The notes under the pieces were generated by a model, which had not been told where the DNA came from, made no database searches, and saw nothing but the letters and a program-made list of their open reading frames with translations. A program made the translations under genes and the position numbers. 64,000 bases of DNA from Norana najaformis (Eukaryota > Annelida > Clitellata > Crassiclitellata > Hormogastridae), in NCBI GenBank assembly GCA_964023275.1, contig OZ029923.1, forward strand, positions 10,058,238-10,122,237. The letters are read 5' to 3'. Shown piece after piece: positions 4,734 to 59,050 of this stretch. How positions within the stretch are numbered: the first letter of the stretch is position 1; each line of letters starts with the position of its first letter.

Positions 4734-6901
4734 ATGTCCGACTCGGGCAAAATCACCGTTAACTACTTCTGCCTTGGCGCCTTCTTCATCTTCATCGGCA
4801 GCGTCCTGCTCTGCGCCCTCGGCTTCACCGTTGTTCTTCCCTTCGAAGTGACGCGCGGCTGGCCCGAGGTCACGTGCACGGTCATCAACTCTACCTATGA
4901 TCCGAACGTCTGCTCCTGCGACGAACAGCTGAACGTCTTCGACACGTGCGTCTCCAAGTATCCGTGCCTCCAGATTTACGTCGTTTACGTACCTGTAAGT
5001 CCCGGCAACGTTCGGCCGAGACCCAACAGGACCGCTGGGCACGTCCCGCCGGAGTCTACCAGACGGGGAGGCGCTGATAGGAGACGCCGCAGTCCAGGCT
5101 GGGTCGTAGAGGATGAGGTCGCGGACCCGGTGGTCGTTCCCCTGAATGGTTCCATGGTTCAGCTAAGGGACCTGACGACTGAGACGGGTACCGTGGACAT
5201 TCCTGAAAGATTGACCAACTTCACGAAGTTTCTTGTTGACCACCCAAACCGCGCAGACGACCACGACGTTCGGGCAGTGGCTTCGAACCTCGTCGAAGCG
5301 ATCGCGTCAGCCACCTCATATCCCGCTACGTCTACCTACAGGCAGACGGTCGCGAAGGTTTCTGCTGAGTCTGAGAAAGCTGATCACATCCACCATCGAC
5401 CGTTGCTTTCGTCCACGTTGCTTCCATTCAGTAACCTCCCCTCGAAGGACGATATCTATGAACTGAAGAAGGGCTCGAACAATGCTGATACCGTTCCAGA
5501 GGCGTCGCTGTCCCGAAACTGGACTGACTCCTTCCGGAAATCGGAGTACGGGGAGGACAGCAATGACCACGTTTCTCCGGTTGATATCGATCTTGCGAGG
5601 GAGGACGCGAACCGAGACACAAAGGCGCCTCCAGCGGTGTTCGCCACGCTCTATCGATCCTGGGACGACTCGTTTCATCGTCAGGTAGACCGATTGATAC
5701 TCGCTTCTCGACAAATTGATTAATGCCGAAGACAGGTACGAAAAATCCGGCAGATCGCGTGTCTGGAGTATTTGTAAACAAGACAGGTGCTCCTGTAATG
5801 TAATATATATATATATATATATATGTTATATATATATAATGTAATATATATATAATGTAATATATATATATATATATCCACGGGCCAGCGTGGACTTTCT
5901 GCTTCAATCATGCTGCACTGGAATATACACAACACGTAATAAACCAATAATTTCCTTATTTTATGGTCTACACAACAAAGTGGTCTGTTCATTTAGCGCG
6001 CTGAGTCTGCGACCGAACGAACCTGCTGAGTGGACTGCGGGTAACGACCCTAGGAAATCTGTTTGCGTACACGTGCCTCTGTCAACAAGCAGTAGAATTT
6101 GGTAATCTTGGAAGTAGGCCTACTCGGAAAGTCCTGTGATGCAATTGCCACGCATCGTGGCTTTTACTTTATTACTTTTACTTACTTCACGCAAGACTGT
6201 GCAGAACCAGTCTGATCTTATGTACAAACTTCTGTGACGTATTTTTATCACACATAGTTCGTTATCTGTACAAAATAAACAATAAAATAGCGTCGTGTAA
6301 GTAACTCGCAAAAGTGGTGCGAATAGAGCACGCGAGATGTCAATTGAGGGTCTCTTACAAGTGAAAATGTCCAAGAGGTAACCTCGCGAATTGCATGGGT
6401 AATCAATTACCGAATCCAAACTTATGGGGGGCTGAGTTGACCCACATGGCCAGGTGTTCCGTGGACTGTCATACACCCCAGATCTAACCAGATATGGCGT
6501 CGCTTAACTTTACTGTGCTTTCCAGCGTGCAGTCCACAACACCTAGTCGTTTTGAAGTAGGTACGCCTTTGAACACTGTCTTACATGCATGCATATATGC
6601 ATACATACATACTTCGGCCTATGTACATACATACATACATAAATAGGCCTATATACATACAGTGGGACGCGGTGGTGTAGTGGTATATTCGATGCCTCGT
6701 AACCGGAGGGTCGCGGGTTCGAATCTACCTCACGCCACTGGGTAGCGACCTTGGACAAGTTGCTCACCCACAGTTGTCTGTGAGGAAGGCAACGGGAAAC
6801 CACCTCACTCATCTCATCCCCGGGTGGCATAAAGCCAATGGACCTGCCTTCTGGTAGAAAACTCATCATCATACATACATACATAAATAGGCCTATATAC
6901 A

Positions 6902-6932
<31 letters not shown>

Positions 6933-7418
6933 GCCTACATACATACATAGGCCTATATACATACACATACATGCATACATACATAGGCCTACATACATAC
7001 ATAGGCCTATATACATACACATACATGCATACATACATAGGTCTACATACATATATACATACATCCCCATGCATACTTAAGCACATAAACATACGTTCAT
7101 GGTTTGCAAGTGACTCGTCGTCTGTCGTTGCAGTGTACCTTGACGGAATGCGGCGACGAGACGTGGAACGTGAAGGAGGCGCGCCGGTTCAAGTTCGACT
7201 GGGGTCGCCTCAGTCAGTCGTTCACCTGCTTCTACAACCCCCTTCGGCCGGACATGGTCATCATCGAACGTACGTCCACGGTAGCCGCGGTTCACGCGGT
7301 CCTCTGGCCGGGCCTGTGCCTGATCGGGGGCATCACCCTCTGGCTCGGGCTCTGTCTTGGCTGCTGGTCGCTGGGGTCGGAGTCCTCCTGCAAAGACGAT
7401 TACGGACCGATCTACTAG
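4734..7418 (+). CDS. BK-channel beta subunit / TipE-like two-TM channel auxiliary protein
   Basis: Predicted auxiliary subunit of a potassium or sodium channel at the plasma membrane. Exon 1 starts at ATG 4734 and encodes a short cytosolic N-terminus, TM1 (about residues 11-35) and a cysteine-rich ectodomain start (CTVINSTYDPNVCSC, PCLQIYVVY). The last exon, 7134-7418, begins after a TTGCAG acceptor with CTLTEC and carries QSFTCFYNPLRPD and a second hydrophobic helix ending near LGLCLGCW. This matches the two-TM, Cys-rich-loop plan of KCNMB and insect TipE families. Two phase-0 donors fit. CCT|GTAAGT at 4994 gives 181 aa, the usual KCNMB size. CAG|GTAGAC at 5684 gives 411 aa with a large loop insert, closer to TipE size. 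Both join the last exon in frame. The loop core has eight cysteines in either form. The specific ligand channel cannot be told. Confidence 0.8.
4995..5723 (+). other. In-frame coding extension of channel-subunit exon 1
   Basis: After the first donor the frame stays open for 242 more codons, to TAA at 5721-5723. That is far longer than expected by chance in an intron. The encoded stretch has no cysteine but has N-glycosylation sequons (NRT, NGS, NFT, NWT), and is polar and probably disordered, as expected for an extracellular loop insert. A phase-0 donor lies at 5685, shortly before the stop. It is either a facultative exon part or retained-intron coding sequence; without transcripts the choice is open. 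Confidence 0.6.
5802..5877. repeat. (AT)n microsatellite
   Basis: Interrupted AT dinucleotide tract in the intron of the channel-subunit gene. Confidence 0.9.
6585..7075. repeat. (TACA)n microsatellites flanking a SINE
   Basis: ATACATAC-type repeats interspersed with AGGCCTAT occupy about 6587-6660 and 6868-7075. They flank the family B SINE on both sides, consistent with insertion into, or tail expansion from, this microsatellite. Confidence 0.85.
6662..6880 (+). mobile_element. SINE, family B (tRNA-headed)
   Basis: It begins GTGGGACGCGGTGGTGTAG, has an A-box-like TGGTGTAGTGGT and a B box GGGTTCGAATC, then a non-tRNA body (GGCAACGGGAAACCACCTC) and a TCATCATCATACATAC tail. A second head-only copy is at 29117-29210. 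The tRNA-like part lacks the surrounding context of a real tRNA gene and recurs, so it is called a SINE. Confidence 0.8.
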
Positions 7419-8645: not shown

Positions 8646-8814
8646 CAGGCTTCATAGGGGTTTTTACAGAGACGTTTCAAGAACTGTTACCTCTATCGCT
8701 GCAATAAAGGCAAAGGTATCACAGTTTTCAAAAATCATCAGAAGTTCTTTCATTTTACCGTTTTGGGCCTTGACTGTGATGTAACGAGGCCACTTTCTAG
8801 AGCTGGATTTAATC

Positions 8815-9978
8815 TAAGATCCATGTGACATTGCCACTGGATTGAATCTGTGATCCGTGTGACATTGCCACTGGAATGAATCTGTGATCCGTGTGACATT
8901 GCCACTGGAATGAATCTGTGATCCGTGTGACATTGCCACTGGATTGAATCTGTGATCCGTGTGACATTGCCACTGGATTGAATCTGTGATCCGTGTGACA
9001 TTGCCACTGGATTGAATCTAGGATAGTATCCATGTGACTTTGCCACTGGAATGAATCTGTGATCCGTGTGACATTGCCACTGGATTGAATCTGTGATCCG
9101 TGTGACATTGCCACTGGAATGAATCTGTGATCCGTGTGACATTGCCACTGGATTGAATCTGTGATCCGTGTGACATTGCCACTGGATTGAATCTGTGATC
9201 CGTGTGACATTGCCACTGGATTGAATCTAGGATAGTATCCATGTGACTTTGCCACTGGAATGAATCTGTGATCCGTGTGACATTGCCACTGGATTGAATC
9301 TGTGATCCGTGTGACATTGCCACTGGATTGAATCTGTGATCCGTGTGACATTGCCACTGGAATGAATCTGTGATCCGTGTGACATTGCCACTGGATTGAA
9401 TCTGTGATCCGTGTGACATTGCCACTGGATTGAATCTGTGATCCGTGTGACATTGCCACTGGATTGAATCTAGGATAGTATCCATGTGACTTTGCCACTG
9501 GAATGAATCTGTGATCCGTGTGACATTGCCACTGGATTGAATCTGTGATCCGTGTGACATTGCCACTGGATTGAATCTGTGATCCGTGTGACATTGCCAC
9601 TGGATTGAATCTAGGATAGTATCCATGTGACTTTGCCACTGGATTGAATCTGTGATCCGTGTGACATTGCCACTGGATTGAATCTGTGATCCGTGTGACT
9701 TTGCCACTGGATTGAATCTGTGATCCGTGTGACATTACCACTGGATTGAATCTAGGATAGTATCCATGTGACATTGCCACTGGAATGAATCTGTGATCCG
9801 TGTGACTTTGCCACTGGATTGAATCTGTGATCCGTGTGACATTGCCACTGGAATGAATCCGTGATCCGTGTGACATTGCCACTGGATTGAATCTGTGATC
9901 CGTGTGACATTGCCACTGGAATGAATCTGTGATCCGTGTGACATTGCCACTGGAATGAATCCGTGATCCGTGTGAGAT
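8815..9978. repeat. 34-bp satellite array with 39-bp spacer variants
   Basis: Over 30 head-to-tail copies of a 34-bp unit (core ATCCGTGTGACATTGCCACT) are present, with little divergence. A 39-bp variant containing TAGGATAGTATCC appears at 9021, 9230, 9473, 9614 and 9755. The spacings are 209, 243, 141 and 141 bp, exactly 39 plus 5, 6, 3 and 3 units of 34. The unit length is not a multiple of three and lacks minus-strand stops, so a 391-codon frame runs through it; this is an artefact of the repeat. Confidence 0.95.
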
Positions 9979-10858
<880 letters not shown>

Positions 10859-18900: not shown

Positions 18901-21760
18901 CCCATGTCCAAGACCTTCAGATTCATCCATTAAAGGACCAGCTCAAGGGCCAAACCAAGTAAATGAGCATCTCCCCTTTGGGATTTGGGAGTTTTACTTT
19001 ATTTCTTATTTATTTTAAGCATAATGCACACAATGTTAGTACACTTGAATCTGAGGTGCTTTATTTGTTATTAGATTTTAAGGAAGATCTCATATAAAAG
19101 ATGGTGTCCTCACAGTTTGACAATTTTTATTTCACATGACGGACCTGGTATTCAAACCCAGCAAGTAGAGGTGAAAAGCTGAAGCACTAGCCCTTCAGTC
19201 TATGTACCACTTCATTTTAATTCACTATTTGTGGGTTTTTGCAATTTTATGTGTTCCTTGATATGGCATTCCAGTTCTTCCCAGCCTGGGTGCCACAGCA
19301 CACGAGTGCCATGAACCAGCTCTTGGCTGAATGGCATCAGTGGCAGAACCTAAAAGCTATTCACTTACAGTTGTATTGCTGTCGGTGACATGCCCAGGTC
19401 TGCCTGAAAGCGATTAAACAGTAGTTTTTACTTATTTATTTACTTACTATTTACTTACTCCCATTGCGTTAGCCAAGGATTTTGTAGCATAGCAGCATAC
19501 TCAACAACAGTTGCTGATAGGCGCTGAGGCACATATCGAGGTCACAGGTGACTAAATGACTTTTAGTAAGGGTGCCTTGACCTCAAAAAGGTAGGGAACC
19601 ACTGTGGTATTCTATGCACCTATCTGTTCATAAAACAGATGGATTCATACAACTTACATGGATTGCGGATTTCCAGCCGAAGATTGTTGTCCTCCATCGT
19701 GACTTTGTACTTGTCGACTGAAGCAAGATGTTCAGGGGAGTGGCGCACAGGTGCCGCCACCTCGTAGTGGGGGTGTGGAATAAATCGGTTTTCGAATGTC
19801 CAGTCATAGTCGATTGTTGGAACATTGCTGTCAAATCCCGATATGCTGCATTCGAGAACCAATGGATTGATCCCACTCGACATGTTGGTAAGATTTCGAG
19901 CAGTAACTGCACGCAACATATTCAACACTTTATAATAACACTCAAGGAATATCATGTGAAACACCTTTATAGCACGATAAGAGAGATTGGCCAGATTACA
20001 TCTGGCAACTGTATAAAAACTTTTATGATCACGTTATGAATATATTAAAGAGCAAAATGAAACACTTAATTCATAAGACGGTAAGTTATATATAAATATA
20101 TATAGATATGTATATAGTGGAAGAGAAGCTTTATGTTACAAAATTGCTGAAAGAACTCTAAATGCCAAGATGTAAATGACAAGTAATAACTGTAAAATAA
20201 CAATAAATAAATAAATAAACTAAACAGAAGAGAGCTAACTCCTTTAAACTAACTCCCTTAGTCTAACTCCCTTAAACTAAAAATACTCCAAGAAGCAGCC
20301 ATATGTATGAAGTGTTAACGACTTCATTTTCTTTCCCTAGGCACATTAAGGAGGACTGCCAGCCTTCTCCCTCGTATTCTGATACTCCTACTTACTGTCA
20401 GTGTACTGAGTTAGCTAGGGGGTGTAAATTGAGCAGAAATTTTGAAACATCTTTCAGCCTTGGGGGGAGTTGAATCTTCAACCTCTTGGTTGACAGTCCA
20501 GTGCGCTAACCTCTAGAATACTGTGCAGATTACAACAATAACAATAATGAAACTGCATAAAACAGTAAACTTACTGTAAAGAACGGTAACCCAAACAGCG
20601 TAATTGCTCGTGTCATCTTTACATATGTATGTTCCCCGGTCAACTAGCGACATGTTGCGCTTAATGAGGGTGCTTCGTGTGAAGCCTGATGGTTCCTCTC
20701 GGAAGTATTGGATCGCAACCTGTGACCCACGTAGCGGCTTGACCTCTTTGTCCGTCCACGAGGTAAGAGGCGTCTGCTGGAGCCAATGAAGTTCAACACG
20801 ATCAGTGGTTTCGCAAGCAATCGTTAATGCACTTCCTGCCTTAACGTACAGTGGATGGTATGGCTTTACAATCTCCACACCACCTGAAAATTATATACAG
20901 TAATACAAGTTAGTGCTACTTGTAATGCGAGAGTGTAGACATTCTTTACATTGTCTCAGTGTGCAGCACAGCAGTGGATTCAGCATCATGCACAGGTTGT
21001 TATCTAATGATTCAGGGTTCGAGTCTTCCAAGCAGAATCTTAGTAATGACTCTACAAACTAAAAGCAAGTGAAAGAGATACAAAAGAAGAACATGACTAC
21101 GGATGATAGACAATGCAAACAAGGACATAACAAGACTTGGTCTAAACATGACAAAAGCACCTAATCTGACGAATGACCGACAGGAATGCGGTCATTTATT
21201 CAAAGCTTTCATTGCCAAATGGCTGACATCAGGAATGCAGCTTTGCCTAATAGCAATAAGTAACTGACGCCGTGTGCACGACGAGAACACCACAGAGGTT
21301 TTCTGATTAGACCAGCTTAAATTTTAAACATTGTCAATGCTGGTCATTTTCGTCCCTGTTAATAAACACCGAATGATTAAACCTCCAAAATCTTTTAGTC
21401 TTATACAACAGGTAACGACATTTTAATTACGATCTATTGCATTTCAAGTAAACCTCTTGACCTCACTACCTTCTTTTGGGTTAAATTCTTACATCATCAC
21501 TGAGCAAAACGGTTGTCGGTTGTAGGATTGCTGACCTCACGGCTGCCGTTCACCATCTTGCTGGGGCAAAATAAATTTACGGTGACCTTACTTTCCTTCG
21601 ACCTGCAGCCCGTAAGAACTCTCGGGTTCAGACTATAGGATCTGCTTATGTATGACCTAGTACCTGAGACGATCCTGGAACACAGCAAAAGAATTGTCAA
21701 CAGTTTAGCGAAAAATTGTTGACTGAAGACGAAAGAGAATTCTTTAAGTCTTGATCCCAT
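15925..21760 (-). CDS. Secreted/anchored two-immunoglobulin-domain protein
   Basis: Five minus-strand exons: 21760-21664, 20883-20575, 19906-19658, 18775-18686 and 16028-15925. All introns are phase 1 with GT-AG ends, giving 282 aa. Exon 1 (ATG 21760) encodes a signal peptide with hydrophobic core AKLLTILLLCSRIVSG. An in-frame ATG 13 codons upstream is less likely to be the start. Exon 2 is Ig domain 1, with Cys55 (LTIACET), Trp65 and Cys119 in DRGTYICKD. Ig domain 2 is split over exons 3 and 4, with Cys155 (LVLECSI), Trp171 and Cys228 in LDGGLYNCTF. Exon 5 ends in a hydrophobic tail (VPLLSFAIVFAISFIN) with no cytosolic part, suggesting a GPI signal or a tail anchor. Sequons include NMS, NLT, NCT and NES. 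It is probably a cell-surface adhesion or recognition protein; the family is not assigned. Confidence 0.8.
16080..18098. mobile_element. 2-kb foldback (long inverted repeat) element
   Basis: Arms of about 690 bp (16080-16768 and 17424-18098) are inverted copies of each other with few mismatches. They end in matching termini, TCATTCCACGTCAAATCAAC on the left and its complement on the right. The ~655-bp centre has a second nested inverted pair around 17137-17168 and 17240-17272 (AGCGTTCGAGCCTTGGTGAA-type). No transposase frame is visible, so it is non-autonomous. It lies in the last intron of the two-Ig gene. Confidence 0.85.
18165..18340. repeat. (GGTAA)-type degenerate repeat
   Basis: AAGGTAAGGTAA-like tract. 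In the sense orientation of the surrounding minus-strand intron it reads CTTACCTTACC. Confidence 0.7.
20338..20530 (-). mobile_element. SINE, family C, in Ig-gene intron
   Basis: On the minus strand it carries the family C order: tRNA-like head around the GTTGACAGTCCAGTGCGCTA complement, then the GTACACTGAC-type middle and the GGCAGTCCTCC complement. It matches 29700-29985 and 27183-27530. Confidence 0.65.
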
Positions 21761-27800: not shown

Positions 27801-30800
27801 CTCTCGACATGTACAACGAGAAGAACACTGGCACGAATCTCCCAGCCCAGATTGAGCTGTATGCCACTCCTGGCAACGAATATCACTTCCTGTTCATCGC
27901 CAAGGGAGGCGGGTCGGCAAACAAGTCTTACCTCTACCAGCAGACGAAAGCGCTGCTCACGCCCGAGAAACTTCTGTCGTTTGTCAATGAGAAGATTAAG
28001 GTTCATCTCAGTAGTTAACTGATTAGTTAACTGATTAGATTAATTTCTGTTTCTGGTTATTTAGGTCAGTTAGATAGTCTGTATTTCATTTATGTTTGGG
28101 CTTCTGCTGCAATCGAGTTTGGGTTTTGGAAGATATTTTTTGTTTTGCAAAGGATTGCTAGCGTTTTTATCAGTGTTTTTCTTGAGCAACCGGTGCTACT
28201 TGTCAGTCCGAGTAGTTCACCTGTAAAGGAAGTCTGGTTCTGTGGATGGGAATCCATGGTTGGACTACTGATGAGGAATAGCAGGGTATCATAAACACAG
28301 TTTCCAGAAGATCCGTCCACTAAGACAGAGAAGCAGCCTTTGGTGGATAAGCAATTTGAAAAAAGTAGGTCTGCATTATGATAACGACACTATATAAGTT
28401 GCTACCGTAAGTTGGATAAAATGAGCAAAAGAAATCTTGAAATATCAGTCTTGCAAGGATTTGAACTATAGACCTATGGCTTGATAGTCCAGAATGCTAA
28501 CCCCAGGCTATTGCATCAGCCTAACATGATGATGGGTTATTTTCAGACATTGGGCACTGCCGCTTGTCCTCCGTACCATCTGGCTCTGGTGGTTGGGGGA
28601 ACCTCTGCTGAATTCAACCTTAAAACGGTGAAACTGGCTTCGACCCACTACCTGGACGCTTTGCCAACAACGGGTCTGTTTGGTGTTCTGTTTATTCGGT
28701 TATTTATTTGATTTAAATAGATGTGATTAAAATTGATTAGAATCAGTGGAATTTGATTCATAACTCGAGAATAGATTAAAATAGATAAGATTAGATTTCC
28801 CTCATAATATTGGACTTTGATTGCCTAGGTAACGAACACGGCCGTGGCTTCCGTGACCTTGAGCTGGAGCAAAAGGTCCTTGAGCTGACCCGGAAAGTGG
28901 GAATCGGGGCACAGTTTGGCGGAAAATACTTCTGCCATGATGTCCGTGTTGTCCGACTTCCGCGTCATGGTGCGTCATGTCCAGTTGGACTTGGCGTATC
29001 ATGCTCTGCTGATCGTCAGGTAAGCCACAACTGTATTAACCTATTTTAACCCTATATATACATATTAACCCTGCCTACATTAACCTAGGTAACGAACACT
29101 GCCGTGGCTTTTTTAGGTGGGACGCGGTGGTGTAGTGGTATGGCCGTTGCCTCGTAACCGGAAGGTCGCGAGTTTGAATCTGCCTGAAGCCACTGTGTAA
29201 CTCTAACCGTAACCATCTATAAATATTTCTTTCTGTCTTTTTCTTTGGCTCTGTGTCTCTGTTTCTGCATCTGTCTCTTGCTGTCTTTTATGATTTATTC
29301 TTTGCCTAGTGGTATATATGACAGCCCTTGTTTTGTTTGTATTTTGGTTTATTTTCTGTCATTTTTCGATTAGCTTATCCACCATAGTCCTGTGGACTGA
29401 CCTTCTGGATATTGGCCTGATTGTGACTTGGCTTTGGTGTGCCGTCGGTTGATCCCTCGTGCATTTGACTTCGGCACTTTAGAAGCTACTATTTATTATT
29501 ACCCGGGTATTTTTATTTTTGGGTAGGTTCTTGGTAAGATCACAAAGGATGGGGTCTTTCTAGAACAGCTGGAAACCGATCCAGCACAGTACTTGCCAGA
29601 CGTCCCTGGAGAAGCACTTGGAGGAGATGTCGTCAAGGTATTCTGAACTTCGTTCTTAACCGTTTTCAGCTGTTTGGACTGTTTCAGTATTAAGACTTAT
29701 CAGGGATGTGAAATAGTCTAGTGGCTTGCATGCTGGTCTGTCAGTGAAACGGTTGGGATTTCAAATCCCAACCAGGGTAGAAATTTCTTTCAAGATTTCG
29801 GGTCCACTTGTGCCCCCATTAAACTCAGCTATATAATGAATACACTGTACACTGTCAGTGGGAAGATCCTTGGGTGAAGGAGAGGACTGGACACGGCCCT
29901 CATATGCTGAGGCTATGAAAATGAAGTTGCCAACACTGTATTCTTGTGGCTGCCTCTTGAGTTACTTGAGGGACTACTTCTTTCCTTTGACTGCACTATA
30001 ATTAATTAGAATAATGTACATGATTAATTAATATTGACCTATCTGCCTAATCAGTTGTAAGCATGAAGGCCAGAACTGGAACCAAGTTTTGCATTTGTGG
30101 AATGTTGATAGTGGGTTATTTCCAGGTGTATGACTGAGAATGAGGTGTTTCTCTCTTCCTATCTTTGTGTATCTGTATCTATCTCTGTAACTGTCTCTGG
30201 GTTTCTGTTCATGTCTGTCTGTATATCTGTCTCAATATCTCTCTGTTTGTGCACCTGTCTGTGTTTTTGTATCTTTCTCTGTCTCTTTCTGTATCTCTCT
30301 GGCCCGGGATCTCTCCATATCTGTCTGTATATCTTTCTTCATATCTTTCTCCATCTGTCTCTGTGTCTCTGTCCCTCTGTCTGTGTTTAGAGCCCTGTTC
30401 TTTCTTCATACTGGCTAGGTTAATCTGAATCAGCCAATGAAGGAGGTTCTGGCCGAACTGTCCAAGTACCCGGTCAAGACTCGCCTCAGTCTGTCGGGGA
30501 CCCTTGTCGTCGGCCGTGACATCGCCCACTCCATGCTCAAGGAGCGCCTTGACCGTGGCGAAAGTCTACCAGAATACATCAAGAACCACCCGGTCTACTA
30601 TGCCGGACCGGCCAAAACGCCTAAGGTGGGATCTGATGTTGATGGTAGAAATAGAACCTGAGTTCTAGTAGATTGCTAGTGATTTGCTAGTATATTGTTG
30701 GTTTTGTCGCTGCTGGGCATTTGTCCATATCAGGATTTACCGGTAGACATAATGATAGCTACATAGATGGATACGCGGAAATAAATAATTGTAATCGTAA

Positions 30801-32593
30801 TCTCGAAAAATTCCAAAGCTGAATGATGCATGGTACTGGCTTATTTCTTGAGCACTGCATCAAGTCAGAGGGGTTGTCCAAAGATACTGTGTGAAGTACG
30901 AAGTCCTGTTGCCAGTAGACCAGGACAACTTGTTCAGTTAGCTTAGATAATAAAGAGAGATTGAAGATAGGTTGGTTGTTAGAGAGATTTTCTTTATCAA
31001 GATTTGCTTTTTTAGAAGGCGAGTGACAAGAGAATATTTGAATATTTGAAAGTGAGGGGAAGCAACCAGTAGATAATAGATAGGTAGTATAGGTAGATCG
31101 ATAGATAGATAGGTAGATAGACAGACAGACAGACCGAAGATAATGGTAGTTTATTGTCTTTGGGAGTTTTTTCTTCTACCAATCATTGATTTATTTGTCA
31201 AGGGCTTTGCAAGTGGTTCGTTTGGACCAACCACCGCTGGTCGCATGGACTCCTATGTTGATCAGTTCCAAGCGGCTGGTGGCAGTATGATCATGCTGGC
31301 TAAAGGAAACCGTAGCAAGCAGGCAAGTTTTCTTGGCAATACATCTACATGTTACACTGAAAATTTCGTGAAAAGTAAGCTTGGAAATTTCTCAGGTGTA
31401 CTTAAAAAGCTAAGCGCAACTGGGCCAAGTCGTTTTCCTGAGCTGCCATTTGAAGAACGTGTGTGGCATTAAAATAAAGTGTATTTTCTTTGTTTGAAAG
31501 CAAAATCTGTGAATGAGGTGAAAATGCTGTTCGTGTTGTGTGCATTTCGAAGGCCATTCCAGGCAGGTGGCCCAGCTGCCAACCAGTGGCTGGACCATCT
31601 ACCTTTCTCTGATCTGTGTGACCATCTCGCCTGGAATGCTACACACGCCTTTCACTGACGCTGGAAAACTTGACTTTTGCCGAGGCTGGACTGGGAGTGG
31701 CTTTTGAGTAGAGATTCTAAAGAGGCGCTATATAAATGCTCTGAATGAATGAATTTGAAACAATATTCAGTTAATGCTGTTGAGTCTTTTATGTTTATTA
31801 TGTTTACTGTTACTTACTTTAAATATGCGATGGCAGGTCACAGGTGCCTGTAAGAAGCACGGCGGGTTCTATCTCGGATCGATTGGTGGACCAGCAGCCA
31901 TTTTAGCCCAGAACTGCATCAAGAAGGTGGAAGTCTTGGAATACCCAGAGCTTGGTAATTAATTAATTTAATGATTTATTTATTTATTTACTGCAGTTAC
32001 TATGTGCACAGTGTCTGGAAAACTGAACGTGAGGCGTGAGACAAATGTGCGCGAACAAACTGTCCAGGTCTCTACACGGTATCTGCTGAAACCAGTAATC
32101 GTTACATTAAATAGGCCACAGTTCCACACAAATAAGCACGTTTTATTAGTTATTAAATTACTCCAGATAAATTAAACTTTTGTTTATACACAAGGTTAAC
32201 AATGAGAGATGCTAAAAATAGTTCTTGAAAGCTGAGCGTGCTGAAGGATATTTCAGCCAAGAAGAAAAGCAGCCATGGGTATAAGTGTTGTGAATTCATT
32301 TTTTAGTCATGGTAACAGTGTTATGTTGTTGCCTTAGTAACAACATTATGTGGTTACCGTGGTAGCTTAGTGTCATGTTGTTGCCAACAGCATTATGTCA
32401 TCATGGTGACAACAAAGTCGCAGGCTTTCTTCTGTAACACAACATTATGGTGTTACCGTGGTAACATATCACTGTGCTGTTTGTTTCCTTAGGAATGGAG
32501 GCCATCTGGAGAGTGGAAGTCGAGGACTTCCCAGCATTCATCGTCGTTGACGATAAAGGAAACGACTTCTTCCAGGAGTGGCAGACTGAATAA
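24888..32593 (+). CDS. Fumarate hydratase, class I (4Fe-4S), mitochondrial-type
   Basis: Interconverts fumarate and malate in the TCA cycle. Twelve exons: 24888-25056, 25473-25600, 26460-26598, 26946-27046, 27794-28000, 28547-28673, 28829-29019, 29527-29637, 30419-30625, 31203-31322, 31837-31954 and 32493-32593. They give 572 aa with every junction in frame. It aligns end to end with bacterial FumA-type fumarases, not with the FumC/class II enzyme of vertebrates. The cluster cysteines are all present: Cys136 (GCQDTGTA), Cys255 (TAACPPY) and Cys341 (GASCPVG). Other hallmarks are [17 protein letters not shown] and [11 protein letters not shown]. The N-terminus ([15 protein letters not shown]) is basic, hydrophobic and lacks acids, suggesting mitochondrial import. 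Exon 10 ends CAG|GCAAGT, a GC-AG intron; exon 5 has a weak GTTCAT donor. The start is the first ATG with homology downstream; a 5' UTR exon is likely. Confidence 0.93.
25250..25365. repeat. 21-bp AT-rich tandem repeat
   Basis: TTTATTAAATTATATTAAA-type units repeat about five times in fumarase intron 1, just before an (ATT)n run at 25425-25462. Confidence 0.85.
25735..25865 (-). mobile_element. LINE tail fragment (family L), diverged
   Basis: Reverse-complement order CCTGTTCACAGG, then TTTGAGATCCAAAGGCCAGG, as in 39350-39510. It lies in fumarase intron 2. Confidence 0.5.
27183..27530 (+). mobile_element. SINE, family C, in fumarase intron 4
   Basis: tRNA-like head (AGTCTACAGGTTAGTGTGCT, then TTCAAATCC B box), middle ACTGTACACTGACGGTGGGA, and 3' part GAAAATGAGGCTGCTAACAC. 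It parallels 29700-29985. Confidence 0.75.
28435..28515 (-). mobile_element. SINE head fragment (family C) beside exon 6
   Basis: The complement of a family C tRNA-like head (GGATTTGAACTATAG, TTGATAGTCCAGAATGCTAA) ends about 30 bp before the exon 6 acceptor. Confidence 0.5.
29084..29110 (+). repeat. Duplicate of the exon 7 acceptor and exon start
   Basis: 27 bp differing at one base from 28824-28850, the exon 7 acceptor CCTAG plus the first 22 coding bases, lie 260 bp downstream in the next intron. They sit directly before a family B SINE. Splicing to this copy would reach an in-frame stop inside the SINE. Confidence 0.85.
29117..29210 (+). mobile_element. SINE head, family B
   Basis: GTGGGACGCGGTGGTGTAG, then CTCGTAACCGGAAGGTCGCG and a degraded B box GAGTTTGAATC. 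It matches the copy at 6662 and lies in fumarase intron 7. Confidence 0.75.
29700..29985 (+). mobile_element. SINE, family C, in fumarase intron 8
   Basis: This is the best preserved copy. It has head GTCTAGTGGCTTGCATGCTG, B-box region GGGATTTCAAATCCC, middle TACACTGTACACTGTCAGTG, and 3' part TGAAGTTGCCAACACT, then GTGGCTGCCTCTTGAG. Confidence 0.75.
30130..30392. repeat. CTGT/CTCT-rich simple sequence
   Basis: Degenerate CTGTATCTCTCT repeat in fumarase intron 8. Open frames here are Ser/Leu/Val/Cys simple peptides and are not coding. Confidence 0.75.
30783..30852 (-). mobile_element. LINE tail fragment (family L)
   Basis: ATTGTAATCGTAATCTCGAA, the reverse complement of the family L terminus, in fumarase intron 9. 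Just downstream, 31085-31135 is a (GATA)/(GACA) microsatellite. Confidence 0.6.
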
Positions 32594-46596: not shown

Positions 46597-47925
46597 AGGA
46601 TTGAGGTCAAGACTGCTTGATGAGAAGCCACAAGCGATGCTGGTCCAATTGCAAGTTTCTACGATCACCGTTGATCCTACTCCGATTTTTTACAGTCAGT
46701 GTTGATTGACGTGTGATTTTTCATGATTGATGTTGATCTGACTGATTTTTTAAAACAATTGATGTCAATCCTACTGTAATTTATTGTGCTTGAGGCTGAG
46801 ACTACTTCGATTTTTTATTATCGACGTTGATTCAGCTGCAAATTTACGTTTTGATTCAGCTGCAATTTTACAACCGACATTGATCCGATTGGAGTTTGCG
46901 TTGCATGCTTTTGTGCTTTTATTGATCTGCGTTTCTAGAGTCCATATGTGTTCAACTAGTGGAGCTATATAAATGCTCTGCATTTATGTTGTGTCACGTT
47001 TCGATAGTGTCGGAAAAGAAGCTTCTGTATAGTGTCGAATTTGAACTGATAAGAATCTCGTGCCTTCTGCTTAATGAGTAGGTTCCTACCTTATCTTAAT
47101 GTACCTTTGACATACCTCACCATTACTACTTACTATGCGTTAATTATTTCTTATCATTACCTTTGACATACCTCACCATTACTACTTACTATGCGTTAAT
47201 TATTTCTTATCATTACCTTTGACATACCTCACCATTACTACTTACTATGCATTAATTATTTCTTATCATTACCTTTGACATACCTCACCATTACTACTTA
47301 CTATGCGTTAATTATTTCTTATCATTACCTTACCTTGACAAAACTTGCCTCAGTGAAACATGACTTACCTTATAATTTTGCATTATCTAACTGTACCTTA
47401 CCTTAGTATATCTGGCCATATCATCATTACACGAATTACTTTCCAATTCTTTGCATTAACTTCCTTATATTACCTTAATACACCTTATCTTACCTCACCA
47501 TAACATGACCTTAGCATACCTTGCCTACCGTAATATTCATTATCATACCTTGCAATACCTCACCTTTCTTTATATTATCTTACCTTTTATTTCCTTACCT
47601 CACTTTGCCTTACCTTAACATATCTTACTGTAACAACTTTGCATGCCTTGTCTTCTGTTGTTTCGTCTTGATGGCTTCCTGCTTCATGTGCTTTCTCAAA
47701 TCACTTTCTGTGCCATAGTTTTTGTGCCAAAGGTTTTTGCCATTTTTGTGTGCCAAATTTGATGTTAATTTGTGTGCCTATTCAGTATTATTAAAAATGC
47801 TTTTTTGACTTACTGAAGGGCGGATTTCGCTGTAAGTATGCAGGAGACTTCCCTTTTGAGTTTTTTTGGGAGTCAACATGCCACTAAATTGTACTCCTTC
47901 TGGTTAGGGTTGACCACTAAAACTA
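46597..47925. other. CAPZB 3' flank and repeats
   Basis: Contains the 56-bp tandem repeat at 47105-47330 and a CTTACC tract at 47470-47640. The end of CAPZB transcription is not resolved, and no other gene is recognised. Confidence 0.45.
47105..47330. repeat. 56-bp tandem repeat, four near-identical copies
   Basis: The block starting CTTTGACATACCTCACCAT repeats at 47105, 47161, 47217 and 47273 with almost no divergence, so it is a recent expansion. Confidence 0.95.
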
Positions 47926-48957
47926 TACGGCACAATAATGGCATGCATTCGATTAGAAGGAGAGGAAACGGAATGGTTCAAGATAGAAACAGGTTTCCGA
48001 CAGGGGTGCATCCTGTCACCAATCTTGTTTAATATGGTATTAGACTATATCATGAGACGTCTGGAAAGAACCCATAATTTGGGAGCACAATCTCAACCAA
48101 GAAATGCAGAGGATGTCGAATATGCAGATGATGCATGTCTGATTGCAGAATGCCTAACAAGAATAATGGAGCTGTTAGAGGCACTAGCAGAGGAAAGTGG
48201 AAAACTTGGACTGAAAATTAACTATAACAAAACTAAAATAATGCCAATAACAAAAAAGGAATACAACGGGCCAATAGTTAAGCTTAAGGAACAAGAAATT
48301 GAGGTAATAAATAAGTTTGTCTATCTGGGAAGTGAAATGAAAGCAGGGGGAGGATCTGAAACAGAAATCAAAAGGAGAATAGCACTTGCAGGGTCAACCT
48401 TTAACAGGTTGCAAAAGGTCTTCAAACGACATGATATAAAACTGGAGATAAAGCTAAAAATCCTCAACACATGCGTGATCCCAGTACTAATCTATGGATG
48501 TGAGTCATGGAGTATCACAAGAACAATGGAGAATAAACTGAATGCAGCAGAAAACAAATGGCTCAGAAGAATACTAAGAGTTAGCTATAAGGACCATGTA
48601 ACGAATGAAAGTATTAGACAACGAACACAACAACCATTGATAAACAATGTGATTAAGAAAAGAAGAATGAAGTGGGCAGGACATATCCTGAGGATGGAGG
48701 AGAACCGTAATCCAAAGAAAATCTTTAAATACAAACCGGACGGAAAGAGGGCAGTGGGAAGACCGAAAAGAAGATGGATAGACTGCCTTGAAGAGGATCT
48801 GAAAGGTGCCGGAGTTACTATCTATGGGAAAACGGAGGGCAGACGGAGAATGACCCTTGAGGAGATGGCCGGGAAACGAGATTTGTGGAGGGATGTCATA
48901 GAGAAATCAACGACTGGATCCAGTCCAGAGATGATTACATGACATGACATGACTAAA
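47926..48957 (+). mobile_element. 5'-truncated LINE with partial reverse transcriptase (RTE/BovB-like)
   Basis: An uninterrupted 334-codon frame (47938-48942) starts inside the polymerase fingers (FKIETGFRQGCILSPILFN). It has the catalytic YADD at 48121-48132, then LGLKINYNKTKIM, FVYLGSEM, NTCVIPVLIYGCESW, LRRILRVSY and MKWAGHILRM. The C-terminal DGKRAVGRPKRRWIDCLE block is typical of this LINE group. The endonuclease and N-terminal polymerase parts are missing. The 3' end is a short (ATGAC)n run followed by ACTAAACT, which resembles ACTAAAACT just before the 5' end and may be the target-site duplication. The intact frame suggests a fairly young insertion. It cannot move by itself. Confidence 0.88.
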
Positions 48958-56719: not shown

Positions 56720-57907
56720 CTAGCTTCTAAACGGTCTGTTCGGGAGGTCACTCGACTGCGAGGCTTTCGGAATGTGGTTCGGCAGCGCGGATCGCAGGGC
56801 ATAGGCATACAGGGAAGACAATGGGTTGCGGGTTAGAGCACCGGGGTGGAAAACCCCGTAGTTGAGGCCAACCCCGTTTAGAGGATACGGCAAAGACGTA
56901 TGGAAGTTCACAGAGGGCGGGGTGGCGAAGATAGGGTTGCCGAATTGCCCCGACGGGGTGCTGGTCGACGCAGACGGGTGGCAGGCTAATCTCTCGGGGC
57001 AGTCTACGATGGATGGAGTGGAGACAGCTCCCGCACAATCCGGGTAGACCAATCCCGACGCCGCCAACCGCTGATAGAACGGAAGTAGCGATGACAACAC
57101 CGGATATGACGCGTTAGACAGCAGGTACGGACTAACCGGAAGCGTCTGCAGACAGGCAGAAGTCGCCGCGCCGGTTCCGCCACCGGAAGTCGACGCGGTG
57201 GCGTACATCCGGTTCCGGTTGGCGCGCCGGCGGAGCTTACCCGTCGTGCCCCCGATGTAGACGTCATCGGCGGATGCGTCCAGCATCCAGTAGTTGCCCT
57301 TTCCGGGGTCGTCGTAGTGTCGTGCGACCTTGACGAAGCATTTGTTCAGGGATAGGTTGTGTCGGATGGAGTTTTGCCAGCCTTGGCGGTTATCCTTATA
57401 GTAGGGAAAGTGGCGCACTATAAATTCGTAGATCCCGCTCAGGGTCAGTCGTCGTTCCGGGCTGCTGCGTATGGCCATCATGATCAAAGCGTTGTAGCTA
57501 TAGGGCGGCTTCTCGGAGCTCTTCCTCGCAGTTCCTCCGCCAGAGTGCGCCGCTACTTCCGCCTGCGACGAGTCAGGCTGCGCCGTCGTCTTGTCGTCCA
57601 CTTCCGGCCACGGACGGAAGTTGCACAATCGGTCGGAAGTGGCGTCATTCGATCTGTAGACGTCGTCATCGTCGTCGTCGTTGTAATCGTTCAATTTGAC
57701 GTCAGTTCCGGAAGACTGGTGTGTCCTGGAGTCCATAATGTCAGGTTCACTGTCGTCGCGTGAGACTTCCGGTACACGGGATCGACTTTCGGCTCTTAGT
57801 TCTTGTTCTTCGTTCTTTCCCGCGTCATCCTCCTCCTCTTCCTCCTCCTCCCCCAACATCCGGCGGATACTAAAGGGATGATAGAATATGTAACGCCGAT
57901 TGCTCAT
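56720..57907 (-). CDS. FoxG: Forkhead transcription factor, FoxG class
   Basis: Nuclear DNA-binding regulator; FoxG/BF-1/sloppy-paired genes pattern anterior nervous system and head. It is a single exon of 395 aa with ATG at 57907 and no intron, as is common for FoxG. An EH1-like Groucho-binding motif (FSIRRML, residues 12-18) is followed by acidic runs (residues 20-28 and 77-82). The forkhead domain spans about residues 133-230. It starts [15 protein letters not shown], has the recognition helix [15 protein letters not shown] (177-191), and ends with the FoxG-diagnostic [15 protein letters not shown]. The C-terminal part keeps only [11 protein letters not shown]-type similarity and is otherwise diverged and Pro/Ser-rich. 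A broken copy of its own 5' end lies directly downstream. Class assignment is firm; one-to-one orthology needs a tree. Confidence 0.93.
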
Positions 57908-59050
57908 CTTCAGCAGCGAATTCTATACCGCCTGATTCATGACACTGACAATCCTTCGATACTGTCAGCTGACGATTGCTGTTTGTTTTATTCGTAGTCG
58001 TTACCAGTCGCCGAGAGCACATGCGCGAAGACACGTGACGCGGCGTAGTAATCCGTGGCGGTGATTCGGCTCCTCGTGAGAGACTTCTAATTGAGCTACT
58101 TATTGCCAGTTCTTGACGTTTCGAAGATACCGCCGTCCTTAAAATACGCCACTAACCTGGCGTAAAGCCAAGCTGAGGGGCGTGGCTTCGCTCATTAGCC
58201 ACGCCTTCGCTTGATCACGATTGGCCGGTAGATTTTACGGTTATTGAATTGTACGTCTAAAACGACTGTTTTAATAAAGGCCTTTTAACAAACGAGCGAT
58301 TAACTGAACTTACATTATATAAATATATTAACCCATTTGGTCGGTGGCCAGTCACGAACAAGCAGAGGCGGGGCTAACACATCAGCGATTTTTCAGTCAA
58401 CGCGGACACAGCACTAGTGGGCGGAGTAAATGCATCTCGTTCTGCCCACCGACCAATCGCTTCAGCCGCCAATCTTTGATGGGATGGCTCTCGTTAGCTG
58501 GAGCGAGACGTCGTGGCCGGCTGCGGCGTTGAAATGAAGGCTCGTCACTTTTTGTCGCAGTCGGGTTGTGCCAGTCCCAAGCCTGGATAAAAGAGCAGGA
58601 TGACGCTAATCATCTTCGCTATGACATAGCGTCGTTACACAGCAACCACACATTTGGGTATGTTAAATTGGCCTAAAGAGGCATTTAGCGCCACACGGGG
58701 ATATAATGAGCTAGGGAGCCGGAGGAGAGTGTAGGTACGCCCGGGTGCGTGGTCGATTAGGCGCGGAACGTTTTGGGTAGGCAGGAGATTGGCAGAAACA
58801 AGTAGACTGATCGGTAGTCACCTCAGAGTCTAACCAATGCCAGACTAATCTACGGAAGTGGCGTCGATAAGTTCCAAACATTGGGGGAGACCTAGCCCTT
58901 CCGTTATCACCTTCCCACCTGATATAACTAATATAGCGAGTATGTTGCTGTAGTTTTTACCACATTTTTATACTAATAAATTATTCTTATTATGATTACT
59001 AAAATTAAAATTGTTTAAAATTATAATAATAATTATAATAATATTAACAA

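Follow-up and report, generated by a model that had tools for sequence, protein, structure and literature searches.

Beta subunits of BK channels are best known as four vertebrate genes whose products have compact ectodomains, and beta2 and beta3 carry an inactivation ball. The TipE relatives of arthropods act on Nav channels. A distant homology between TipE and KCNMB proteins was published in 2011 (PMC3240667), and a tree of honeybee KCNMB and TEH proteins followed in 2015 (PMC4894402). In the former study, the loops of TipE, Teh3 and Teh4 exceed those of Slo-beta subunits in length (PMC3240667); in cockroach TEH1, the loop is about 157 residues long and includes four putative sites for N-glycosylation (PMC3744522). 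Intron retention in the cockroach TEH1 gene, leading to PaTEH1A and PaTEH1B, was published in 2013; the retained intron measures 94 nt and alters only the last C-terminal residues (PMC3744522). For human beta4, structural work gives ectodomain cysteines at positions 54, 68, 72, 76, 84, 113, 119 and 148, joined by the disulfides 54-148, 68-119, 72-76 and 84-113 (PMC5854672), and four disulfides are also given in PMC6934384.

Gene structure and family assignment

Here, we analysed a two-exon gene on the plus strand of a 64-kb stretch of DNA from Norana najaformis, in the following called the window. Exon 1 begins at the ATG at 4734 with a conserved part (4734-4994, 87 codons) comprising a short N-terminus, the first transmembrane segment (TM1) and ectodomain cysteines 1-5, as assigned from the match to the CaKB profile and the cysteine positions. 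In the same open frame, this part is followed by a giant loop that separates cysteine 5 from cysteine 6 (4995-5684, 230 codons, no cysteine), which closes with the conserved segment TLYRSWDDSFHRQ (5646-5684). Exon 2 (7134-7418) encodes cysteines 6-8, TM2 and a short C-terminus, with the stop codon at 7416-7418. Two donors, each in phase 0, lead to the common acceptor TTGCAG/TGT at 7133/7134: CCT/GTAAGT at 4994/4995 (GTAAGT, 4995-5000) is the donor of a putative short form, while CAG/GTAGAC at 5684/5685 (GTAGAC, 5685-5690) is that of a long form. Splicing in silico yields predicted products of 181 aa and 411 aa, respectively. The initial annotation, which had described both donors, these product sizes and a 230-residue insert free of cysteine with several N-glycosylation sequons, was borne out in these points; the sequons number four.

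An in-frame TAA at 5721-5723 closes the open frame if the donors at 4994 and 5684 are both skipped. A third donor, CAG/GTACGA at 5735 (GTACGA, 5736-5741), had been overlooked; it sits 12 nt 3' of this stop codon and is the strongest GT within 4901-5800. In the simple position weight matrix (PWM) that we employed, which was written from general knowledge and not trained on Norana najaformis, the donors score 7.94 (5735), 6.90 (4994) and 5.02 (5684), and the GTAAGT at 4995 ranks within the top 2.5% of the plus-strand GT sites of the window. Within the intron, an AATAAA at 5938-5943 might, judged by the motif, serve early polyadenylation, and further copies stand at 6274 and 6281. The intron also houses an element (6655-6865) with a partial second copy at 29117-29199, 87% alike over 83 bases, which by eye resembles a tRNA-derived SINE.

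The initial annotation had proposed a KCNMB-type protein, and this assignment held. The Pfam profile CaKB (PF03185) matched the short form with 64 bits and the long form with 58 bits (curated cut-off 25.1), the match covering residues 13-84 in exon 1. Among solved structures, human beta4 (chain 6v22_E) was matched at 3.4e-10, and only three matches were obtained at E ≤10, two to beta4 and one to an entry labelled beta2, of which the matched stretch prints as beta4. Hydropathy segments lie at residues 7-40 and 136-168 of the short form, the second at 366-398 in the long form, and we infer two TMs that flank an extracellular loop, with short ends inside. Both forms contain the ectodomain cysteines C48, C60, C62, C72 and C78; cysteines 6-8 are found at 88, 93 and 119 in the short form or at 318, 323 and 349 in the long form. 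Like KCNMB1-4, the window protein has eight ectodomain cysteines and two TMs with short cytoplasmic ends. Compared with human beta4, the number and order of the cysteines are the same, but the spacing of cysteines 2-4 is not (PMC5854672). The insert falls between cysteines 5 and 6, within a loop that in beta4 spans 28 residues and is closed by the 84-113 disulfide; the putative short form would have 9 residues there, the long form 239. The short N-terminus of the window protein leaves no space for an inactivation ball as in beta2 and beta3.

Could the gene be of the arthropod TipE/TEH rather than the KCNMB type? The window protein has its topology in common with the insect TipE/TEH proteins, the auxiliary subunits of the Para Nav channel, the distant homology of the two families is on record (PMC3240667), and a long loop with putative N-glycosylation sites is known from cockroach TEH1 (PMC3744522). 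However, CaKB was found, while TipE (PF16972), a model that we assume to be present in the library, was listed for neither the short nor the long protein with the E limit set to 1 or 10, the HMMER filters removing most matches above about E 0.1 despite the latter limit. A TipE profile search of the genome likewise gave 0 matches, a weak result as the control also matched nowhere. Teh3 and Teh4 differ further in having an EGF domain, of which Pfam lists none in the window protein. We thus rejected TipE membership, which appears very improbable. Of the profile searches against both families that the initial annotation had suggested, the one with CaKB was positive and the one with TipE negative; its idea of a gene bridging the BK-beta and TipE families was not sustained, given the lack of a TipE profile match and a homology that had already been published (PMC3240667).

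Several other features were seen in the window. A 34-bp minisatellite of about 34 copies (8803-9979) yields a minus-strand open frame of 399 codons, and weak matches to Ig domains, under the curated cut-offs, lie at 20516-20890 on the minus strand. On the plus strand, a piece with a Fumerase_C domain (31113-31469, E 3e-15) and a reverse-transcriptase fragment (47914-48939, RVT_1, E 3.1e-15, of non-LTR type by eye) were found. An open frame with a forkhead domain (56720-57922, minus strand) is, by eye, what we take to be the FoxG/sloppy-paired type.

Coding character of the giant loop

The insert at 4995-5684 acts like coding sequence. Dinucleotide shuffles stayed open in frame in 5 of 5000 cases, and both the 3-base periodicity (chi2 47.0) and the codon score (4.9) of the insert exceed the maxima of 33.7 and 1.8 reached in 3000 stop-free order-1 simulations. 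The signal is weak in the first third (74/3000 simulations reach it by chi2 and 574/3000 by codon score), mixed in the middle third (2/3000 and 116/3000) and strong in the last third (0/3000 by either measure). G or C occupies the third codon position (GC3) in 150 of the 230 insert codons compared to 3 of 13 past 5684 (Fisher p 0.005); for the last 39 insert codons the ratio is 24/39 (p 0.025). The codon score likewise falls directly 3' of 5684, and this joint drop fits an exon that ends at 5684.

Alternatively, the long frame could be open by chance, within a first intron rich in CpG. In line with this reading, sub-windows across 4751-5750 show a GC content of 0.55-0.61 and a CpG o/e of 0.91-1.44, compared to a median of 0.67 for the 64-kb window, and open frames of 146-169 codons on the opposite strand overlap the long frame. 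Against it stand the rarity of open shuffles, a periodicity and a codon score above those of all 3000 simulations, the two paralogs that match the exon end and donor, and the existence of a second long loop in one of them (locus C6a, see below). We therefore rejected a chance open frame, which is scarcely conceivable in view of these results.

The four sequons (NRT, NGS, NFT and NWT) are by themselves not beyond chance expectation, with a mean of 1.9 in shuffled sequences and P(≥4) of 0.09. By simple measures of composition, the insert is close to the order-disorder boundary, with a mean hydropathy of 0.415 compared to 0.423 at the boundary; its TOP-IDP value is 0.154, compared to 0.046 for the short-form loop. 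It contains one basic site, RRRRS, which presumably suits furin. The insert gave no match to solved structures at E 1, and AlphaFold, run without alignment on the contiguous frame of 329 aa, returned a mean pLDDT of 38, too low for a usable model.

Related loci in the genome and the choice of donor

A CaKB profile search of the genome (608 Mb, 17 contigs) gave 26 exon matches at E ≤10, 19 of which lie over the cut-off. Grouping them by nearness and order, we obtained at least 16 KCNMB-like loci, i.e. putative genes, on 11 of the 17 contigs, 15 over the cut-off and one (C8) below; these counts are lower bounds and leave out five further sub-cut-off matches. In 210 kb of flanks, tblastn at E ≤1 detected no paralog and only the window gene, and a scan of viral contigs for relatives yielded 63 pattern-matching stretches and 0 relatives. 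The last exons of all 16 loci begin in phase 0 on cysteine 6 with AG/TG[T/C], at the place homologous to the acceptor AG of the window gene (7132-7133), which is thus conserved among the paralogs; the acceptor reads CAG or TAG in 15 of them and AAG in one. In one set of seven last exons, all extend well past TM2 and six carry a motif RRxLT[F/L]C there, which the window gene does not have.

Exon 1 was read in seven of the 16 loci, the window gene among them. Taking as loop end the best GT past cysteine 5, within the open frame or up to 30 nt beyond, we found pre-donor loops of 30 (C15), 30 (C8), 35 (C2), 35 (C6b), 39 (C5a) and 230 residues (C6a) in the six relatives. The best GT is clear and in phase 0 in five of them; in C6b, the GT that defines the 35 residues is barely ahead of a second weak GT (3.77 vs 3.73). 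The loci C15 and C8 (L036, L038) have roughly at least 70 open residues before TM1, far above the window gene.

In an exon-1 protein search, C6a and C5a came out closest to the window gene; C6a is 45% identical to it across 86 exon-1 residues, and C5a 52% across exon 2. A tree of the last exons joins the window gene with C5a (95/92) and this pair with C6a (85/88); the sequences are short, a long-branch warning applies, and only the pairs of window gene and C5a and of C15 and C8 are starred. In all three genes, the motif L[Y/F]RSW..[S/A]F closes exon 1 and a GT donor follows: the window gene ends with TLYRSWDDSFHRQ before GTAGAC, C6a with RLFRSWYEAFYEE before GTAAGA and C5a with LLYRSWTDSFYAM before GTAACT. 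The last 13 pre-donor residues match in all three pairings (0/20000 random anchored draws in each), in an anchored register picked after the motif had been seen. With exon end and donor shared in this way, the donor at 5684 lies at a splice site homologous to GAG/GTAAGA of C6a and ATG/GTAACT of C5a.

C6a holds the second giant loop: its best GT, directly past RLFRSWYEAFYEE, comes 230 residues after cysteine 5, and its extension of 221 codons encodes three sequons and a single cysteine. Outside the last 13 residues, the loops of C6a and the window gene gave no alignment (free local score 40, reached by 351/2000 shuffles), and the C6a loop is without GC3 excess (0.51, 0.50 and 0.47; chi2 p 0.007). 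C5a, the nearest gene in the tree, has a loop of 39 residues before its donor, and a stronger GT (12.46) lies 435 nt past its open frame. Either the giant loop predates the split of the trio and was shortened in C5a, or it expanded on two occasions.

Which donor makes the product? We regard it as likely that this member of a family of at least 16 loci is a KCNMB-type gene of two coding exons whose normal product is the protein of 411 aa spliced at 5684. The initial annotation had viewed the insert as optional, added to a short form of KCNMB size. In the six relatives read, however, the best GT follows the segment before cysteine 6, and with paralogs of the same genome standing in for related species, the donor at 5684 is kept in both close paralogs, while that at 4994 lacks a good counterpart in all six relatives read. 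Judged from these sequences, the canonical product is most likely the long form, to which the short form would be an unproven addition.

Two regulated isoforms, a short-loop protein of 181 aa from 4994 and a long-loop protein of 411 aa from 5684, would be another explanation, which the initial annotation had raised and we consider unlikely as it stands; some use of the donor at 4994 is quite possible. GTAAGT is a good, in-frame donor that outscores 5684 in the PWM, and the short form retains all eight ectodomain cysteines and matches CaKB. The donor lies on a Val-Ser codon pair in an uncommon spelling: in a small reference set, GTA spells 5 of the 36 valine codons and AGT 6 of the 61 serine codons, so that GTAAGT would be expected for about 1 in 70 such pairs, a hint that 4994 may be no accident. 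A valine codon, however, stands at the aligned place in five of the seven genes, and a phase-0 GT is thus expected there for protein reasons; C6a reads CCG CGC CAC and C5a AAC GTA ACA at this place. The best GT at +9 residues in the six relatives scores 2.55, and the short form would be devoid of the conserved LYRSW segment and would place 9 residues between cysteine 5 and cysteine 6, compared to 28-39 in beta4 (PMC5854672) and five relatives.

If both inner donors were skipped, a read-through form of 329 aa with TM1 and loop but no TM2 would result, by intron retention, by early polyadenylation past 5938 or by splicing at 5735. The position of the best-scoring donor past the stop codon and the AATAAA at 5938 would suit such a form, and intron retention affecting the C-terminus is documented for the cockroach TEH1 gene (PMC3744522). 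It is nevertheless improbable, as GC3 and codon score drop right past 5684, the motif directly adjoins a donor in both close paralogs, and the product would be left without cysteines 6-8.

Proposed architecture and significance of the long-loop protein

The 411-aa protein would keep the four-disulfide plan of BK-beta subunits, with the presumed pairs C48-C349, C60-C323, C62-C72 and C78-C318, while the loop under the Cys5-Cys6 disulfide would have grown from about 30 to 239 residues. As this loop is free of cysteine, charged and polar and equipped with four sequons, it probably forms a flexible, glycosylated canopy that projects from the extracellular crown. We envisage an auxiliary subunit that docks on the channel through its TMs and bears the long loop on its disulfide-held crown. 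This loop could impede large molecules close to the pore or contact extracellular partners, and it may influence gating or pore access. Membership in the KCNMB family makes Slo1/BK a more likely partner channel than Nav.

It is distinctly doubtful that donor choice toggles between an outside loop of 9 and one of 239 residues on one BK-beta-type subunit. If true, the animal could add or remove a glycosylated canopy over the channel, and one gene would join short- and long-loop architectures that separate paralogs hold elsewhere in the genome. With PaTEH1A and PaTEH1B, alternative RNA processing has a precedent among related proteins (PMC3744522); unlike in PaTEH1, the choice would lie between donors within the ectodomain.

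Among the matches listed in searches of the open-access literature, which make for weak negatives, we found neither a long-loop subfamily of KCNMB proteins nor the present expansion to at least 16 KCNMB-like loci described, and nothing relevant on KCNMB outside vertebrates and insects. As far as these searches go, a giant-loop KCNMB variant or subfamily is new, and so is a family numbering at least 16 loci. The sister genes suggest that the long loop belongs to the normal product and is not an optional extra. In two of at least 16 loci, the loop reaches about eight times its usual length, both times at the same fixed position within a presumed disulfide. Such giant loops reveal where the BK-beta fold tolerates growth, and the loop-size variants provide natural material for testing the role of the extracellular crown.
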